Positions 1 to 8,694 of a stretch of 64,000 nucleotides of DNA are shown one piece after another. The notes beneath the pieces were generated by a model, which did no database searches, was not told the origin of the DNA, and saw nothing but the letters and a program-made list of their open reading frames with translations. Source of the DNA: Paenibacillus hemerocallicola (lineage in GTDB: Bacteria > Bacillota > Bacilli > Paenibacillales > NBRC-103111); contig NZ_VDCQ01000052.1 in assembly GCF_006265175.1 (NCBI RefSeq), positions 1 to 64,000 of the forward strand, given 5' to 3'. Position 1 is the stretch's first letter. Each line of letters starts with the position of its first letter. The translations under genes and the position numbers were made by a program.

Positions 1-3000
1 AGAGCAGCCGAAGCTTTCTCGCTCGTCGTAACGTCCAGCGCATACTCGACATTTTTGTTGTCGGAGCCGCTGTTTACATTGGCAATAGCCGTGTAGGAAG
101 CAACGGAGCCGTTGTTCGCTTTAACCGTACCGACCGAGCCATCGCCGCTTACGCCCAGTGCGGACGAGCGCATGTCGCCTACAGTGATCGTCATGCTTTG
201 ACCGCTATTAGCGCCGATTTGGAACGTAGCTTGGAAGTCGCCAAGCGGCGAGTTTTTCGTCGACACTTCGGGCGCTTTGTCGGAAGCGAAGTCTTCCGTT
301 TGCGTCAGCTTCAACGAACCGTCCGCTTCCACGGAAGCGGTATATTTGTCCTTCAGCTTGGCGTTGCTGTTGATGGCATCAGCCAAAGCTTTGGATTGAT
401 CGGCAATTGTTGCCGCTTCTTTGATAGCCGTCCCGTTGTCGTAGCCGACATGTTGATTTTTGTTGCTGATCGAGATTTCTTGACCGTCTACGATAAACTT
501 CGAGCCGTTAACGAGCAGGTCTTTCTGAGCGATCGTATACTCGCCCTTCGTTCCCGTTGCACGAACATCGAGGTCGGTTGCTTTCAGATCGGTGCCGGAA
601 GCAACTTTCTCCGTGATCGTAATTTCGTTGCCGCTGATCGAAGCGCTGTAGTTGTCTTTCAGCGAAGACAGGTTGATAGCCGCCATCAAGCTTGCCGCTT
701 GATTGTTCAGGTTGCCGCCGCTTACCGAAAACTGACCTTTCGCGCCGGACGCTACGCCGTCAACCGCCGTGAATACGGAGCCGTTGATCTCCACTTTGTC
801 GCCGGCTGCAAAAGCCTTGTCGACACTGAAGGAGTAGGTGCCCTGAACAGCCTCTGTACCGCCGACAAGCGTGTTGGACGCAGTAGCAATCGAGTTGCCC
901 AGCGTCTTCGTATCCCAGTCGCCTTGAGCTTTGAACTCGTATTGGCTGAAGTCGATGGAATCCCATTCGCCGTCCTCGTTGAAGAACTTGAATTCTCCAA
1001 GCTCTTGAACCGCTTTTTGGATTTTCTCGGCCGTGTTTTCTCGTGCGTTTTCTGCGGAAAGGTGGATCGTCAAGTTGCCTTTATCGACGGTTACGTTCAG
1101 TTGATTTTCAACAACTGCAGCTTTACCGCCGGACATGGTGGCAGCTCCGACTTCGATATCGGAAGCCAGGTTTGCGGTATCCCAAGTTCCTGCTCCGGCA
1201 GATGCGGTCCACCCCGAGAAATCGATGCCGTCAATCGTTCCAAGATTTCTAATGGCCGCTTCGACATTGGCAGCGGTATTTTTGGACGCCGTTGCACTAG
1301 CCATATTCAGAGTCAGCGTGCCATCCTTATAAGTCACGTTCAATTCGTCGGTTCCGTTCGCTTTCAATTCGATCTTGACGCCGTTGGCTCTCGGCGACTG
1401 ATTGTCCGCCGTTCCCGAAGAAATCGTGAGGGTCTGGCTGTTCGATTGAACCTGGGAACTTGCAGCGGATGCCGCTTGATCAAGCGCCCTAACGATGGTA
1501 ACCGTATTGAGGTTTTGTCCGCCCTTATTTGTAATCAGCAGCTTGTCGTCCGAGCCCGATCCGGATACGGACAAATCTTCCAGAACTTGACCGGTCGCTT
1601 TGTTGTTCGTTTCCGTCAAAGTTATGGTTCCGTTGGAGGCAACGCTTGCGTATTCGAATCTCGAGCCCAATGCCGAATTCGCTTCGATGGCCGCCGCGAG
1701 ACTTTTCGCCTGATCCTCGATAGAACGGCTGCTGGAAACCGCATCGGCTCCTTTGTCGCTGCTGAAGTTCGCAACCCCGAACGCTGTTTGCAGACGGTTA
1801 AGATCGGCTGGCTGTCCGGCATTGATTACAAACTGCACACTTGAAGTCGGTTGGCCGCCTTGTGACTGTATGACCAACTCATTGGCCGCGTTCAAGCTTA
1901 CATTTGCGTAATCGGATAGCTTATAGCCGTTTTCATCGACCGCATTTTCAACCAGAGCTTCAACATTCGCTCTCGTATAGCCGGTGTCAAGAGTTTTGAG
2001 CGCGCTGTTGCTGATTTTGAAATCTTTGCCGTCAACCGTGATCGAAATGCTGGAATCCGCATGAATTGCATCTGCTCCAACTGCACCGCCGGCAGCGCCC
2101 TGCTGTGGGCCTGAACCCACGTTAGCAAAGTTTCCAGCGTAACCTGTTTTGTTGCCAGTTGCTGCCGCAGCGGTCGAGACGCCTGCATTTTTGGCAGTGA
2201 TAATAAATCCGGTGCCGCCGCCGTTCTTGGCAATGTTATAATCCGCGAGTCCGCCCGCCGTCTTAATCTGATCGAATGCTTGTTTAATCACATCGATTTG
2301 TTCTGAAACCGAATCGTGAGTGCCGCCAGCAGTAGTATCGAACGTTACGGTTGCACCTGTTTTGGATGCTCCTGCAACCCCGGTAGTCGCTCCATCGGTA
2401 CCTCCAATAGCGATTGTGACATCGCCAAAAGTGATATCGAACGACTGACCGCTTGTCAATGCAACACTGAGCGCGCCGGTATCCCATACTGCCGCCCGAC
2501 CGTTGAGATCATCGCCCAGACCAACTACGGCGCCACCCTTGATCTCCGCTACAGTGTTCATTCCGAACGTATCATTTACTTTGGCGGCTTCGTCGCCGGT
2601 AGCCGTCCATGTAATCGGTTGGGTTTGGGGATCCTTCGCCGTAATCGTGATTTTGCCATCGGACGATACCGTTACGTTCGCTACCGTGCTGAGGGCAGTC
2701 CCGCTTCCGTCTCCGGCAGTATCCGCGGCCAATATCGCATTTTTCAGAGCATTTGTTCCACCTGCGCCATTAATGGCATTTAACGCGGTATTATTGATGA
2801 TATAGTTATTTCCGTTAACGTTAATTCTAACAGTTTCGTCTGTTCCCGCGATATTCGTACCGAGGTCATAGGTTCCTTTAGCCGCTTCTCCCGCCGTCAA
2901 CGTAGCTTCAATATTCCCTACATTGAATTCGCCCTTGGAGGCATCGGCGCCGGACAAAACAGCCGTAAATTTCTGGCCGCCGATCGTGACCGAATCGCCC

Positions 3001-4037
3001 GCTTCTTTGAACGCTTCCTTCAATTGGAACTCGTATTCGCCATTTTGCTCCGTCACGCCGCCAGCCAAAGTACCCGTATCGCCTGCGACCGGTACCGTAA
3101 CCGCTTGTCCCGTAATTTGCGAAGCCGGCTCGACGACGGAGATGCGGTTCGTCGAAGTGAAGCCCGTCGACGAATCGTAGTTTTTGATCGACGAGTTCAT
3201 CTCGTTGTACAACTGACCCAGGTTTTTCGCGAGCGAATCGCCGGTAGAGGTTTGTCCGATCGTGAAGATGTAGTTGCCTTGTCCGTCGATTTCCAGACGG
3301 GACCCTTCGCTCTTCGTCGTTCCTTGACGCACGGTAATCGTTTTTCCGTTCAGGTCCGTGCCGTTCTCGGACGCTTGGACGCCGATGCCGACCGTCAGGT
3401 TGATCAATGCTTTCTCGCCTTTGATGCTTTGCGTGTTCTCGGTAATTTCCGATACGCTGCCGGTTGCTTTGCTCGTGGAGCCTTGGACCGAAGTCGAGGA
3501 GGATTCCACTTTCACGCTGCTCGCTACCGTTTTCAGCGCGGTTACCGTACCTTGTGCTACGCCTTTGACACCGTCCGTTACGGTGTTGACAGCCGCGGCC
3601 GATTCCACAACCGCCGCATTTTTACCTTTCAATAACGACTGCGTGTTGAACTCGGTCGTATTGCCGATCCGGTTGATCTCGGACGTCAGCTGGTTGATTT
3701 CCTTCTGGATTTCCTCGCGGTCGACGGATACGTTCGTGTCGTTCGCCGCTTGGGCCGCCAGCTCGCGCATACGCTGCAGGATGGAGTGCGTCTCGTTGAG
3801 CGCGCCTTCCGTCGTTTGGATCATCGAGATGCCGTCTTGCGAGTTGCGTTGCGCTTGGTCCAGACCGCGGATTTGCGCGCGCATTTTCTCGGAGATCGCG
3901 AGACCTGCCGCGTCGTCGCCCGCGCGGTTGATGCGGAGACCCGAGGACAGCTTCTCGATCGATTTGCCGCTTGCCGTCGAGTTCGTGCTCATTTGACGGT
4001 ACGTGTTCAGTGCTGCGATGTTGTGATTAATTCTCAT
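1..4037 (-). CDS. hag: Giant flagellin, 3' end cut by window edge
   Basis: Open without a stop from the ATG at 4037 to the window edge (1,345 codons), so the C-terminal D0 helix lies outside. It forms the flagellar filament after type III export. Residues 1 to about 150 are a standard flagellin N-terminal D0/D1 domain ([16 protein letters not shown], then [20 protein letters not shown]). A C-terminal D1 start (ALGV block) appears at about residue 1270. Between them lie about 1,100 residues of Ser/Thr/Gly/Asn-rich beta repeats, several like flagellin-IN motifs (for example [16 protein letters not shown]). Typical flagellins are 270-500 residues, so the variable region is enormously expanded. 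No HExxH protease motif was seen, which argues against flagellinolysin. The ribosome binding site AAGGAGG lies 9 bases upstream and is itself inside a hairpin. The gene lies downstream of csrA on the same strand. Confidence 0.93.
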
Positions 4038-4043
4038 TGCTGG

Positions 4044-4058
4044 ATTCCTCCTTGGAAT
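4044..4058 (-). promoter_or_regulatory. CsrA-type hairpin over the flagellin ribosome binding site
   Basis: On the mRNA strand ATTCC-AAGGA-GGAAT forms a perfect 5-bp stem with AAGGA in the loop. The Shine-Dalgarno sequence AAGGAGG is inside the hairpin. This is the position of CsrA site BS2 in the B. subtilis hag leader, where CsrA binding blocks ribosome access. The fold is seen in the sequence; CsrA binding is inferred. Confidence 0.7.
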
Positions 4059-4062
4059 GTTT

Positions 4063-4084
4063 AGGTGAACATCCTTTTTCACCT
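4063..4084 (-). promoter_or_regulatory. Second CsrA-type hairpin in the flagellin leader
   Basis: The mRNA reads AGGTGAA-AAAGGATG-TTCACCT: a perfect 7-bp stem with an 8-base loop holding AAGGATG, which matches the core of the CsrA consensus (A-R-GGA-U-G). It lies just upstream of the ribosome-binding-site hairpin, as BS1 does in B. subtilis hag, so a CsrA dimer could bridge both. Confidence 0.7.
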
Positions 4085-4135: not shown

Positions 4136-4222
4136 CCAAAAAACGACAAAAAGGACGAGTTTATCCCGTCTGCACTCTTGGCATCCTGCCATTCGTCAGA
4201 CTTCGACAAAACTCGTCCTTGA
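4136..4222 (-). terminator. Triple-stem terminator-like RNA element between csrA and the flagellin (element 1)
   Basis: On the mRNA strand the outer arms AAGGACGAGTTT and AAACTCGTCCTT pair over 12 bp and are followed by a U-rich tract (TTTTTGTCGTTTTTT), as in an intrinsic terminator. The roughly 46-base interior is structured: helix GTCTG/CAGAC encloses hairpin TGGC-AGGAT-GCCA with GGA in the loop. The same architecture recurs upstream of csrA (4474-4556). It could terminate csrA transcripts or act as a regulated attenuator before the flagellin. I do not recognise it as a named riboswitch class. Confidence 0.7.
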
Positions 4223-4260: not shown

Positions 4261-4428
4261 TTACCGGGAGGCATAGTCGGCTTCGTATACTTCACCGCGG
4301 AGTATCGGAATTTCTTTCGGCGCATCGATGGCGAGACGGAGATCCCCATCCTTGGTTCGAACGACTTGAACCTTGACGTCATGTCCAATCATTACATATT
4401 CTCCGGGTTTTCGGCCCAATACCAACAT
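4261..4428 (-). CDS. csrA: Carbon storage regulator CsrA
   Basis: A 55-residue protein beginning MLVLGRKPGEYVMIG and ending with the IDAPKEIPILRGEVYE block that holds the conserved RNA-binding arginine. CsrA is a dimeric RNA-binding protein that represses translation by occupying GGA motifs in hairpin loops; in Bacillus it represses flagellin synthesis and is antagonised by FliW. The ATG at 4428 follows GAGGAGG by a normal distance; longer in-frame upstream starts only add non-homologous residues. At 55 residues it is slightly shorter than usual (60-80), but the fold-defining part is complete. The flagellin gene follows on the same strand. No fliW lies next to it here, unlike the usual fliW-csrA pair. 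Confidence 0.95.
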   Translation of the reverse strand: MLVLGRKPGEYVMIGHDVKVQVVRTKDGDLRLAIDAPKEIPILRGEVYEADYASR

Positions 4429-4709: not shown

Positions 4710-6260
4710 ATGACGGTCTTACATAGAGGAAGCAGTACAATTTTTTACAAGCTTGAACCGGGCGATGCGGAGCCGGATGCGGAGCAGCTTGTCTTTGTGC
4801 ATGGAAATAGGACGACCCATACTTGTTTCGACTTGCTCGTCCCTTTCTTGAACGACCGATTTCCGCTTATCCGCTACGACCTCCGGGGATTCGGCCGGAG
4901 CGATCTGGGCGATGCGCCGCTCAGCTTGGAAGCGTATTGCGACGATCTGCTGCATCTGGTCCGGACCTTGGGGATACGTCCGTTTCATCTAATCGGATAC
5001 GGCTTCGGAGCGATTGTTGCCGCCCGGTTCGCCGTGCTGTATCCCGAGTCGGTCAAAAGCATGGTGCTCATCTCTCTTCCGTTCAGTCCAGATCCTTCGG
5101 CGGTCAACAATCCCGATTGCTTGGAAACGCCATCATCCAAAGGAACTGCAGGTTCGGTCGATAGGCTCGCCGATTTGATGGCCAGTCTTCCGTCGGACCA
5201 CCCGATACACGGGAAAATCGATTTCGCCGCACTCCCCTCCACTTGCCATTGGATTACCGAATTAAGCATGCGGTATCAACCTATAGACGATTTGGAGCGC
5301 TTGTCCGTCCCGACGCTGCTATTATGCGGGGAAGAGGAAAATTCGTCCCCCGTCTACTTGTCCTTGATGGCAGCCTTCTACTTATCCGAGTACAAGCTCT
5401 ATACGGTGCCGGATTCCGCTTATATGGTCTTGCTGGACCAGCCCGCTCTTACGGCAACCTGGATTGCGAACTTTATTGGCAAGCTCGGTCGGAAGCCGAT
5501 CGCAGAAGAAGCCAAGCCGAAGTCCCGCGATATGCAGCAATATATGAAGCAATTGATAAAGATTGGGGAAGCGGCTGTCGCTTCCGGTGACGAACTGCGA
5601 GTAGAGCTATTGGAAGGCTTTCACGTGTATGCAAACGGAATGGAGATCAAGGGCGGCTGGAACCAGCGGTTTGCCAAAAATATTTTTCTATACTTGCTCC
5701 TCCACCGATCCGTAAGCCGCGATCAGCTGTGCGAGACGTTATGGCCGAATCTTCCGCTCGGCAAAGCCCGCAGCTACTTGAGAGTATATTTATCCCATCT
5801 CAAAAAACTGCTGGAGCCGTCGAACCGCGCGCCCGCTTTTCTTATCATGGAACGCGAGGATGTCAGCTTATATGGAAGAATAGTTTGCGACGCGCTCGAT
5901 TTCGTGCAGGATATAACGATAGCCTCCCAAGAGGAGGATGACCGGAAGAAGCTGGCGCAATGCCGCAAAATATTTCAAACCTTGCCGGTCACGTTCTTTC
6001 AGAGCCTGTACGACGACTGGTTCCTCATGATGCGCGAGGAATGGGAGCATAATCTGGAAAGCCTCGCGGTCTGGATGGCCGATTATTTTATCCAGCAAGG
6101 CAACCCGCAGGAGGCCTCGGTTCATCTGAAGCATATGCTCCGCATACTGCCGAAAAACGAAACGCTGGTCGACAAGCTTATTGTCTGCTACGAGCGAAGC
6201 AAGGATGTGCCCAGCAAGGAATACTGGAAAAAGCAAAAGGATTTGTTTGACGCTTCTTAA
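4710..6260 (+). CDS. Alpha/beta-hydrolase-fold sensor fused to BTAD transcriptional regulator
   Basis: A 516-residue fusion. Residues about 20-265 are an alpha/beta hydrolase fold (FVHGN oxyanion region, YDLRGFGRSD, HLIGYGFGA). Residues about 294-385 are an OmpR-type winged helix and about 390-510 a helical BTAD repeat domain, as in SARP-like activators. The nucleophile elbow G-Y-G-F-G has Gly98 instead of the catalytic Ser, and the region that should carry the catalytic His reads PDSAYMVLLDQP with Ala237. The hydrolase half is therefore probably a ligand-binding sensor, not an enzyme. The gene diverges from csrA with 69 bases to the sigma-D promoter; its ribosome binding site (GGAAGGA) is weak. 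Target genes are unknown. Confidence 0.85.
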   Translation: MTVLHRGSSTIFYKLEPGDAEPDAEQLVFVHGNRTTHTCFDLLVPFLNDRFPLIRYDLRGFGRSDLGDAPLSLEAYCDDLLHLVRTLGIRPFHLIGYGFGAIVAARFAVLYPESVKSMVLISLPFSPDPSAVNNPDCLETPSSKGTAGSVDRLADLMASLPSDHPIHGKIDFAALPSTCHWITELSMRYQPIDDLERLSVPTLLLCGEEENSSPVYLSLMAAFYLSEYKLYTVPDSAYMVLLDQPALTATWIANFIGKLGRKPIAEEAKPKSRDMQQYMKQLIKIGEAAVASGDELRVELLEGFHVYANGMEIKGGWNQRFAKNIFLYLLLHRSVSRDQLCETLWPNLPLGKARSYLRVYLSHLKKLLEPSNRAPAFLIMEREDVSLYGRIVCDALDFVQDITIASQEEDDRKKLAQCRKIFQTLPVTFFQSLYDDWFLMMREEWEHNLESLAVWMADYFIQQGNPQEASVHLKHMLRILPKNETLVDKLIVCYERSKDVPSKEYWKKQKDLFDAS

Positions 6261-6348: not shown

Positions 6349-6376
6349 TTTGGAAAACCGTATCGCGGAGGAGCTT

Positions 6377-6883
6377 ATGTCCGGCAAAGACGAATTGGTC
6401 CGATTCGGCGTCTCGATGCCGTCAGATCTGATCCAGCAGTTCGATCAATACATTAACGTGCAAGGCTATACGAATCGTTCCGAGGCGATTCGGGACTTGG
6501 TCCGCAAGGCGATGCTTCAGCCGGGCCGCATCCCCCCCGAACAGCTGGTGGCCGGAACGATCGTCATGGTGTACGATCACCATGTGAGCGAGCTTCCATT
6601 AGTACTGATGGAGCTGCAGCACCAATACCACAGTCACATTATTTCGAACATGCATGTGCATCTGAATCACGAGCAATGTCTGGAAATCATCGCGGTCCGC
6701 GGCCGCATGGACAAGCTGAGGGAGCTTCAGGAGCAAATTCAAGTGCATCGCGGAGTGCTTTATTGCGAGCTGTCGGTCACCTATGTGGACGAAGGTGGCC
6801 ATGGCGATCATCATCACGATCACGGGCATGATCATGGACATGGTCACGGTCACGCGCACCCTCATCGTCACTCGCACGAATGA
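6377..6883 (+). CDS. nikR: Nickel-responsive regulator NikR with His-rich tail
   Basis: A 168-residue ribbon-helix-helix repressor. The N-terminal RHH (RFGVSMPSDLIQQFDQYI, then YTNRSEAIRDLVRKAM) binds DNA as a dimer; the C-terminal ACT-like domain carries the nickel-site pattern with HVHLNHEQCLEII. Ni-loaded NikR represses nickel uptake genes, which fits the nik transporter 200 bases downstream. The ATG at 6377 follows GGAGGAG; an upstream in-frame start adds nine residues without homology. Unusual: the last 29 residues contain 14 histidines alternating with Gly and Asp, a tail more typical of nickel-storage chaperones such as HypB or SlyD than of NikR. Confidence 0.95.
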   Translation: MSGKDELVRFGVSMPSDLIQQFDQYINVQGYTNRSEAIRDLVRKAMLQPGRIPPEQLVAGTIVMVYDHHVSELPLVLMELQHQYHSHIISNMHVHLNHEQCLEIIAVRGRMDKLRELQEQIQVHRGVLYCELSVTYVDEGGHGDHHHDHGHDHGHGHGHAHPHRHSHE

Positions 6884-6925
6884 CATTGCTATCGCTCCCC
6901 CGGCGTACCTATATCGCCTCTAGAA

Positions 6926-6966
6926 GGAGACCCACTTCGGCCGATGCCGGGCGGAGTCTCTTCTTT
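6926..6966 (+). terminator. Terminator after nikR
   Basis: GAGAC (6927-6931) pairs with GTCTC (6956-6960) around an inner CGGC/GCCG stem, followed by TTCTTT. Confidence 0.6.
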
Positions 6967-7025
6967 ACGTTGCGCTGAATAAGGATACAACCCGGAATGG
7001 ATTGAATTTTTTTCCCTAAAATGTC

Positions 7026-7054
7026 TTACCATCCGGATACAATCGTGCTACAAT
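7026..7054 (+). promoter_or_regulatory. Sigma-A promoter of the nik operon
   Basis: -35 TTACCA and -10 TACAAT are separated by 17 bases. The octamer GGATACAA occurs inside the spacer (7035) and again 52 bases upstream (6983), possible regulator contacts, though no E. coli-type NikR palindrome was seen. The promoter overlaps an upstream ATG at 7021, which rules that codon out as the nikA start. Confidence 0.65.
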
Positions 7055-7092
7055 ACAAACAAAACGTGTCACAAAGAAAAGGATGGGTTAAC

Positions 7093-8694
7093 GTGTTGGG
7101 AAAAAGAACTCGATTACATGTGCTGCTCGTGTCGCTGCTCGTATGCTGCGTCCTCGCGAGCTGCTCCGCCAAAAGTACGGGCGGCGAACGCAAGGCGGAC
7201 GAGCTCGTGCTCGCCGTCGGCGCCGAGCCCGAAGCCGGATTCGATCCGACGACAGGCTGGGGACGCTATGGCTCGCCGCTGTTCCAGAGCACGCTGCTGA
7301 AGCGCGACTCCCAGATGAAGATCGTCAATGACCTGGCCGCGTCCGGGTACGAAGTAACCGCCGATGGAACGGTATGGACCGTCAAGCTGCGCAAGGACGC
7401 GAAGTTTTCCGACGGCAAGCCGGTTACCGCCGCCGACGTCAAATTTACGTTCGAGACCGCCGCAGGCAACGGTTCGGTTATCGATCTCACGAACATGAAA
7501 AGCGTGGAAGCGGCCGACGAGTACACGGTCAAATTTACATTAAAGGAAGCCCAGTCTACGTTCGTAACCCAGCTCATCACGACCGGGATCGTCCCGAAGC
7601 ACGCATATGGCAAAGACTACGCCGAACGACCTGTCGGATCGGGCCCGTATAAGCTCGTTCAATGGAATAAAGGCCAGCAGGTTATCGTCGAGGCCAACCC
7701 CGACTATTACGGCAAGAAGCCCTTCTTCAAGAAGCTTACGTTCCTGTTCCTCGGTGAAGATGCCGCCTATGCCGCCGCCAAAGCGAAAAAGGTCGATGTC
7801 TCTTACATCCCGGCGGCGTTCAGCAAACAGAAAATAGACGGAATGCGGCTGGAAGCCGTTCGCACGGTCGACAACCGGGGCATTTCGTTCCCTTTCGTGA
7901 AGTCCGGGGCGAAAACGAAGGACGGTTACCCGATCGGCAACGACGTTACCGCCGACACCGCCATTCGCAAAGCGATCAATACGGCGATCGATCGGAAAGC
8001 GCTCGTACAAGGCGTGCTGGAAGGCTACGGAACGCCCGCTTACACGGTAAATGACGGCCTGCCATGGTATAATCCGAGCTCGGCCATTGCCGACGCCAAT
8101 GCCGCAGGCGCCAAAAAGCTGTTGGAGGAAGCCGGTTGGAAGGACGGCAACGGCGACGGCGTACTGGAAAAAGGGACATTAAAGGCGCAGTTTGCGCTCA
8201 TCTACCCTTCCGGCGACGTAACAAGGCAGTCTCTCGCTTTGGCAACCGCCGATATGATCAAGCCGATCGGTATCCAAATCGACGTACAAGGCAAGAGCTG
8301 GGACGACATCGGGAAGCTGATGCACGCCAACGCCGTCCTCATGGGCTGGGGCAGCAACGATCCCTTGGAAATGTACAACGTCTACAGCAGCAAGTATGGC
8401 GGTGTCGAGTATTACAATACCGGGTTCTACAGCAATCCGACGGTGGACGATTGGATGAATAAGGCGCTTAAAGCGACACGCGACGAAGACGCCCTGGAGT
8501 ATTGGAAAAAAGCCCAGTGGGACGGCAAAACCGGCGTAAGCGCCCAAGGAGACGCCCCGTGGGCGTGGCTCGTCAATATCGATCATCTGTATCTGGTCAA
8601 GGACAGCCTCGATATCGGCAAGCAGCGCATACATCCGCACGGCCACGGCTGGCCCGTGACCGATAATATCGAAGAATGGACATGGAAGCAATAA
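7093..8694 (+). CDS. nikA: Nickel ABC transporter substrate-binding lipoprotein (NikA-like)
   Basis: A family 5 (peptide/nickel) solute-binding protein of 533 residues. The signal peptide ends in lipobox LASC, so it is anchored outside the membrane and passes nickel or a nickel chelate to the NikB/NikC channel. The body shows typical SBP_bac_5 motifs (LRKDAKFSDGKPVTAADVKFTF; VGSGPYKLVQW). The C-terminus contains HPHGHGWPVTDNIEEW, a His cluster seen in Firmicute nickel-type members and a likely metal ligand. The GTG start at 7093 is chosen because it follows AAAGGATGG and lies downstream of the promoter. First gene of nikABCDE, next to nikR, so nickel is the best substrate call; an oligopeptide remains possible. 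Confidence 0.88.
   Translation: MLGKRTRLHVLLVSLLVCCVLASCSAKSTGGERKADELVLAVGAEPEAGFDPTTGWGRYGSPLFQSTLLKRDSQMKIVNDLAASGYEVTADGTVWTVKLRKDAKFSDGKPVTAADVKFTFETAAGNGSVIDLTNMKSVEAADEYTVKFTLKEAQSTFVTQLITTGIVPKHAYGKDYAERPVGSGPYKLVQWNKGQQVIVEANPDYYGKKPFFKKLTFLFLGEDAAYAAAKAKKVDVSYIPAAFSKQKIDGMRLEAVRTVDNRGISFPFVKSGAKTKDGYPIGNDVTADTAIRKAINTAIDRKALVQGVLEGYGTPAYTVNDGLPWYNPSSAIADANAAGAKKLLEEAGWKDGNGDGVLEKGTLKAQFALIYPSGDVTRQSLALATADMIKPIGIQIDVQGKSWDDIGKLMHANAVLMGWGSNDPLEMYNVYSSKYGGVEYYNTGFYSNPTVDDWMNKALKATRDEDALEYWKKAQWDGKTGVSAQGDAPWAWLVNIDHLYLVKDSLDIGKQRIHPHGHGWPVTDNIEEWTWKQ

Follow-up and report, generated by a model that had tools for sequence, protein, structure and literature searches.

A second giant flagellin gene of Paenibacillus hemerocallicola lies between short csrA paralogues in a recurring, putatively FliW-independent locus

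What controls a giant flagellin gene that stands apart from the main flagellar operon, next to a short csrA gene, in a genome whose operon already holds a giant flagellin? The question arises at the start of the window analyzed here, a stretch of 64,000 nucleotides of Paenibacillus hemerocallicola DNA that corresponds to bases 1-64,000 of contig C116 (G000:C116:1-64000; G, C, and L numbers are our handles for genomes, contigs, and loci, G000 being the host genome, 9.65 Mb in 167 contigs). From sequence comparisons, we consider it moderately probable that this gene is part of an accessory, FliW-independent, CsrA-gated giant flagellin cassette in a recurring locus.

The accessory giant flagellin gene occupies positions 1..4037 of the minus strand, where an open frame of 1,345 stop-free codons runs from an ATG at 4037 down to base 1. 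Its N-terminal D0/D1 domain (3618..4031, minus strand) matches Flagellin_N (PF00669) over residues 3-140 with an E-value of 4.4e-48 (163 bits against a cut-off of 26.6) and is 99% identical to that of its sister, another giant encoded on C87 in the main flagellar operon; the central region between the terminal domains spans ~1,170 residues (about 141-1310). An earlier note on this DNA had described a giant flagellin with standard D0/D1 domains at both ends, and the uninterrupted frame and the profile match bear out the gene and its N-terminal end. Because the window begins at the end of contig C116, the C-terminal end cannot be seen within it and was found outside, via contigs C106 and C145.

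The host genome holds four Flagellin_N matches (C116, two on C87, and C92) and three Flagellin_C matches (C106, C92, and C87). The smaller of the two C87 Flagellin_N matches lies between flgK and fliW, and from that position we take it to be FlgL. This tally leaves two genes without an end, one on C116 and one of 947 codons where C87 stops, and a single end without a gene (C106:22-279), the sole orphan Flagellin_C of the genome, at the start of its contig. The end of C116 (reversed), the end of C87, and the start of C106 share 23 identical bases in frame; reversed C145 opens with 41 bases common to C106, coding NQQPQGVLQLLR and a stop, then diverges, and it carries its own separate last 12 codons of a flagellin gene plus the downstream flank. 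In P. mesophilus (G003) both giants are intact, a stand-alone one of 1,427 amino acids (L012) and one of 1,024 amino acids (L014) placed between fliW-csrA and flaG-fliD-fliS, gene names that we assigned from gene order, and the DNA 3' of the 1,427-amino-acid gene matches host C145:41496-43015. Given the end overlaps and this synteny, the most likely path leads from C116 across the common 3' end to C145, and from C87 to C106. Addition of the 87 residues beyond the overlap, a C-terminus shared by C106 and C145 and taken from overlaps and synteny rather than from reads, yields a giant flagellin of ~1,432 amino acids with a C-terminal Flagellin_C. By this assembly logic (C106, C145, and the intact orthologue), the C-terminal D0 domain, the absence of which the earlier note had named as fatal to its view, is present. 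The idea that the contig break marks a flagellin without a C-terminus was rejected on the basis of the last codons in C145 and the matching flank.

The giant gene sits between two short csrA genes, one directly upstream and another just downstream on C145. The upstream gene (4261..4428, minus strand) encodes a 55-residue CsrA that scores 74.1 bits with the Pfam CsrA profile (cut-off 27), and that has Arg44 and lacks Asn55 and the C-terminal extension. It falls short of the NCBIfam CsrA equivalog cut-offs (63.8 versus 73 and 58.8 versus 70.1 bits), and both short CsrAs scored against these cut-offs lie below them, so such genes may go unnamed. Within the genus, the host carries five csrA genes, P. 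mesophilus four, and three other genomes one each; in a search of 104 genomes of the family, most have one csrA and ten have more than one (five in G000, four in G003, three each in G031, G038, G041, G049, G064, G072, and G103, and two in G100). A profile of the short type (A2) run over 392 genomes of the order retrieved 28 genes in 13 genomes with 101-117 bits, the next score being at most 56 among the matches listed, and a class-wide draw of 398 genomes gave three at E<=1e-20 (G000 included), adding G665 and G681. Together with Bacillus sp. RO3, which was taken from a different sequence collection than the order and class searches, 16 genomes carry a short csrA. A tblastn search of a plasmid collection with one short CsrA (L088) gave no match.

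Among 61 distinct CsrAs from a first set of loci, 39 have 74-84 residues (canonical) and 22 have 50-69 (short). All 61 keep the RNA-binding Arg44; Asn55 is present in 39/39 canonical and 0/22 short proteins, and it is also absent from six further short CsrAs read by eye (0/28 in total). FliW binding by the Campylobacter jejuni CsrA depends on the C-terminal extension together with V51 and N55, the last of which is also important in Bacillus subtilis (PMC7829508). The short CsrAs lack the combination of Asn55 with V/I51 and a C-terminal extension that marks a FliW-responsive protein and, as judged from sequence, look FliW-blind. A tree of 67 CsrA rows over 50 columns places 28/28 short proteins on one side of a 100/100 branch, with a core that is conserved inside the clade and far diverged from the canonical core. 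Exactly one fliW gene was found in each of the 15 genomes searched, so the extra CsrAs come without an extra FliW; that of the host lies on C87 in the main operon, and none is present at the csrA-giant flagellin pair.

At several short csrA genes (e.g. L088:7054 and L087:3796), the GGA of the Shine-Dalgarno can be drawn into small hairpin loops, weak folds that suggest autoregulation of short csrA.

Between csrA and the flagellin gene, the minus strand carries a terminator-like stem followed by a T run (4154..4170), then a leader hairpin, AGGTGAA-AAAGGATG-TTCACCT (4063..4084), with GGA in its loop as candidate CsrA site 1, and the Shine-Dalgarno region ATTCCAAGGAGGAAT (4044..4058) as candidate site 2. 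The hairpin recurs in 13/13 aligned accessory leaders as a stem of ~6-7 base pairs with GGA in a loop of 8-10 nucleotides, roughly 25-55 nucleotides 5' of the start codon, the loop counts being taken from the aligned leaders (a looser loop pattern partly matched the stem). Across these 13 leaders, double-sided changes occur at 5/7 stem pairs in some sequence, stem cells are paired in 92.3% of cases versus 76.3% in shuffles, and the covariation of 0.511 exceeds the shuffled mean of 0.219, with 0/500 shuffles as high; sliding the partner strand destroys the signal. Two further accessory leaders (L152 and L151) agree with the hairpin, and the Shine-Dalgarno holds another GGA, in 10/13 within ACA[TC]GGAGG.

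The leaders of the operonic flagellins are built differently. A tight CACANGGANGTG hairpin is found in 12/13 of them and in 0/13 accessory leaders, and the motif CGATA[TA] within 300 nucleotides, which we take to be a sigma-D-type -10, is likewise found in 12/13 and 0/13; the operonic 12/13 is a lower bound, as the unscanned L013 (less than 300 nucleotides from the locus start) shows CACANGGANGTG and CGATAT. In L152 the operonic leader has CACAAGGACGTC, which differs from CACANGGANGTG by one base. These different hairpins and the distribution of CGATA[TA] indicate that the two flagellin classes differ in predicted CsrA-site architecture and probably in their promoters.

The arrangement is not confined to the host but recurs across Bacilli; the earlier note had overlooked it, along with the giant sister in the main operon. 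A large flagellin gene directly follows a short csrA on the same strand in 15/16 short-csrA genomes (G000, G003, G031, G038, G041, G049, G064, G072, G103, G309, G368, G386, RO3, G665, and G681). A second short csrA is usually near the pair, and in G665, G681, and RO3 the pair adjoins the canonical csrA-flagellin pair. In 14/14 comparable genomes, the accessory flagellin exceeds its FliW-linked counterpart in length (sign test 6e-5, related genomes not being independent; G049 was excluded for a frameshift, and lengths are ATG-based for some pairs and open-frame for others): 1345/947 residues in G000 (both truncated at the same point), 1427/1024 in G003, 1134/719 in G031, 772/546 in G038, 787/539 in G041, 628/592 in G064, 908/565 in G072, 1143/544 in G103, 837/589 in G309, 907/426 in G368, 1144/415 in G386, 813/433 in G665, 421/365 in G681, and 653/413 in RO3. 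With an accessory subunit larger in every pair, the locus offers a way into the question of why giant flagellins are retained; candidate roles for the bulk are stiffness, thickness, attachment, and phage shielding.

The accessory flagellin N-termini of G103 and G386 (98/90) and of G072 and G368 (97/89) pair across families, and others resemble the own flagellin of their genome, a pattern that fits a patchy, exchangeable locus in which, we infer, recombination adapts the ends of the flagellin to the genome that carries it. Regulators are found close by. A 7TMR-DISM histidine kinase with an OmpR-type regulator is encoded near five accessory loci (L088, L089, L091, L134, and L135) and beside two flagellin-less short csrA loci (L095 and L096), and the kinase is 86-90% identical between loci despite two taxonomic families; at L086 and L087 lies a LuxR-type regulator of 1,462 residues that has AAA and kinase-like domains.

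In the mechanism that we propose, the giant flagellin would be a second, accessory filament subunit. Its near-standard D0/D1 would let the ordinary flagellar machinery export and polymerize it, and the filament surface would display its string of beta-rich modules. The short CsrA would bind the two GGA sites of its cognate leader, in the hairpin loop and at the Shine-Dalgarno, and block translation of the accessory flagellin, a repression modeled on the action of CsrA at hag in B. subtilis; it would not be released by FliW upon flagellin export, because the FliW-binding residues and the extension are missing. The accessory subunit would be decoupled from the secretion feedback of the main flagellin and would follow how much short CsrA is present and, through this, whatever signals act on the short csrA genes, with gating at some loci perhaps by the adjacent two-component system. 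The filament could in that case be switched to, or mixed with, the bulkier subunit. More tentatively, we raise the possibility of a portable [FliW-blind CsrA]-[large flagellin] cassette, with its own CsrA lineage and leader code, by which Bacilli would rebuild the filament surface and in which a separate signal, not flagellum completion, would time the giant subunit. If this were true, a cell would hold several chromosomal flagellin types under orthogonal RNA-level switches.

Several observations weigh against a dedicated cassette. The pairing is not exclusive, as G100 has a short csrA (contig C13, locus L095) and no accessory flagellin, and orphan short csrA genes exist at G000:C89:97690-97839 (L096), G000:C46:25519-25668 (L097), and G003:C61 (L094). 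Conversely, many genomes (e.g. G063, G090, G093, and G098) have extra flagellins without a short csrA, and the host itself encodes a third flagellin on C92 (L098:6844-8346), an open frame of 501 residues that has both ends and lacks a csrA anywhere in the 16 kb retrieved for it. The accessory flagellin of G049 (L089, 6103-8471) is frameshifted into frames of 136 and 662 residues, which reflects either decay or a sequencing error. The regulator neighbors vary from locus to locus. FliW-blindness is read indirectly, from two residues and protein length, at positions mapped in the Campylobacter and Bacillus proteins, and canonical CsrA may bind accessory leaders just as short CsrA may bind operonic ones. 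A single lineage of accessory flagellins was considered for the N-termini and rejected (approximately unbiased test, p-AU 0.0007).

If the short csrA genes were passengers or general regulators, the gene would simply encode a duplicated giant flagellin subject to the common Hag-FliW-CsrA control. The near-identity of its D0/D1 domain to that of the operonic giant, the 3' end common to both giants, the flagellin-less short csrA genes, and the standing of giant flagellins as an established class (PMC6248924) all fit such an origin; we nevertheless consider it unlikely in view of the short csrA directly 5' of the large flagellin in all but one of the 16 genomes, the distinct covarying leader class, and the lack of Asn55 throughout the short clade.

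Could the insert rather than its regulation be the key to the locus? The earlier note had suggested that filaments of such large subunits may form a thick or adhesive sheath; on this view the insert would be an adhesive or sheath-forming surface layer, with the regulation incidental. With an iterated profile, a module of ~90 residues is recognized four times (residues 330-418, 733-813, 1064-1148, and 1164-1252), and the last two (residues 1055-1252; 282..875, minus strand) are predicted as beta-beta-alpha-beta-beta units with a mean predicted local distance difference test score (pLDDT) of 81.7, in keeping with the repeated beta-rich modules that the note had described; Tandem Repeats Finder detected no DNA-level repeats in the gene. 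The flagellin-IN-like motifs that the note had mentioned did not hold up, as Flagellin_IN (PF07196) gave no match at E<=1 in a Pfam search of the protein, and the sole match in the host genome is in a different gene, on C106. The 1,345 window residues contain no cysteine, RGD, or HExxH, the last in agreement with the note's view that the protein is not a flagellinolysin.

The two-module model lies near the outer-domain folds of flagellins and FliD, the nearest solved fold being a cyanophage sheath-tube protein (Z 9.5 over 92 residues, root-mean-square deviation 2.3), followed by Stenotrophomonas flagellin (Z 7.0), Helicobacter FliD (Z 6.4), and Pseudomonas FliC (Z 5.5). These middling scores for a predicted model show a common outer-domain fold (flagellin D2, FliD, phage sheath), not a function. 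Foldseek returned no match at E<=0.001 in the PDB and nine at that threshold in a viral library, phage proteins mostly of unknown function. An aligned row of L026 was removed ahead of structure prediction, as it did not look homologous. Whole-length AlphaFold2 gave a mean pLDDT of 49, readable only as a secondary-structure pattern. A surface layer would be in line with this predicted fold and with the giant-flagellin filaments at least 30 nm wide of two marine species (Thomson et al. 2018, PMC6248924), by likeness to which, Bermanella and Oleibacter, a thick filament is plausible. Against a surface layer as the main point of the locus, no adhesin, Ig-like, or enzyme Pfam family scores above cut-off in the insert, its whole profile has no match among solved structures, and the whole-insert model is too poor for reading; no result speaks for an adhesive sheath, and we regard this explanation as more doubtful than the previous one.

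A slightly less probable alternative still is that the short CsrAs act mainly on canonical CsrA, through mixed dimers or competition for sites, and tune the main rather than the accessory flagellin. Such a role would suit the dimeric state in which CsrA works (PMC6529632), the conserved core of the short clade, and the existence of orphan copies. On the other side, linkage to an accessory flagellin with a matching leader class favors a target in cis, and the short core has diverged far from its canonical counterpart. An assembly error, by which the frame would be chimeric or devoid of a C-terminus, could be suspected from a contig that stops inside the gene and from one end common to two giant genes, and is very improbable given the intact 1,427-residue orthologue, 82% identical across the whole window part, and the last 12 codons and matching flank that C145 has of its own.

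Beyond the csrA-flagellin pair, an alpha/beta hydrolase gene (4710..6260, plus strand), the product of which has an unmatched C-terminal half, is divergent from csrA; a regulatory role for it is a guess, and among the 19 loci compared it is shared with P. mesophilus only. At positions 6350-8694, a gene for a NikR-type regulator precedes one for a family 5 solute-binding protein, with the same adjacency to the giant flagellin in P. mesophilus. An Rfam scan of the window gave no match.

How does the locus compare with known systems? Flagellins of this size are not new in themselves: Thomson et al. (2018, PMC6248924) listed 92 Flagellin N-domain proteins of more than 1,000 residues, with giants in several phyla including Firmicutes, and our family search found open frames of more than 1,000 amino acids in G000, G001, G003, G010, G016, G031, and G103 among the matches listed. 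The window protein is 82% identical to the P. mesophilus flagellin and, over its full window part, 69% identical to a 1,444-residue flagellin of P. koleovorans. The latter species also has a frame of 1,724 amino acids, larger than the window's protein, near a contig end (G010:C18:81159-86387, L099) and apparently in tandem with the 1,444-residue one on C13, and it has one canonical csrA. Like the giants of Bermanella marisrubri and Oleibacter marinus (1,020 and 1,190 amino acids; PMC6248924), the present protein combines more than 1,000 residues and conserved D0/D1 with a large insert holding repeated units. Unlike those species, each described with a single flagellin, the host has a second, accessory gene of ~1,432 codons beside short csrA genes.

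A single feedback loop is the usual account of how Bacilli set their flagellin output. In B. subtilis, noncompetitive inhibition of CsrA by FliW ties the translation of hag to secretion (PMC6529632, PMC7652899). As in that Hag-FliW-CsrA circuit, csrA lies just 5' of the flagellin gene and the leader has GGA sites, one of them at the Shine-Dalgarno; unlike it, the CsrA is short and without Asn55 or the C-terminal extension, the locus has no fliW gene, the hairpin is of another class, and no sigma-D-like -10 CGATA[TA] is present within 300 nucleotides (13/13 accessory leaders). A CsrA lineage without FliW contact, beside its own flagellin, would be a natural experiment in how the loop can be cut and how a cell manages two types of filament. 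Genomes of Legionella and Pseudomonas also carry additional CsrA-family genes (csrR, Rsm; PMC7652899, PMC7366521), which the available text does not describe as flagellin-linked, whereas the clade described here is associated with flagellin genes. Phage TldR (PMC13418256) is likewise a dedicated regulator of flagellin expression, but as an RNA-guided transcription factor of phages it is unrelated in protein and mechanism. A search at title and abstract level, mostly outside subscription journals and supplements, found no earlier account of flagellin-linked short CsrA paralogues. We regard the protein as a further member of the known giant flagellins, and the accessory locus with its FliW-blind-looking CsrA, for which we found no earlier description, as a variant on the Hag-FliW-CsrA theme.

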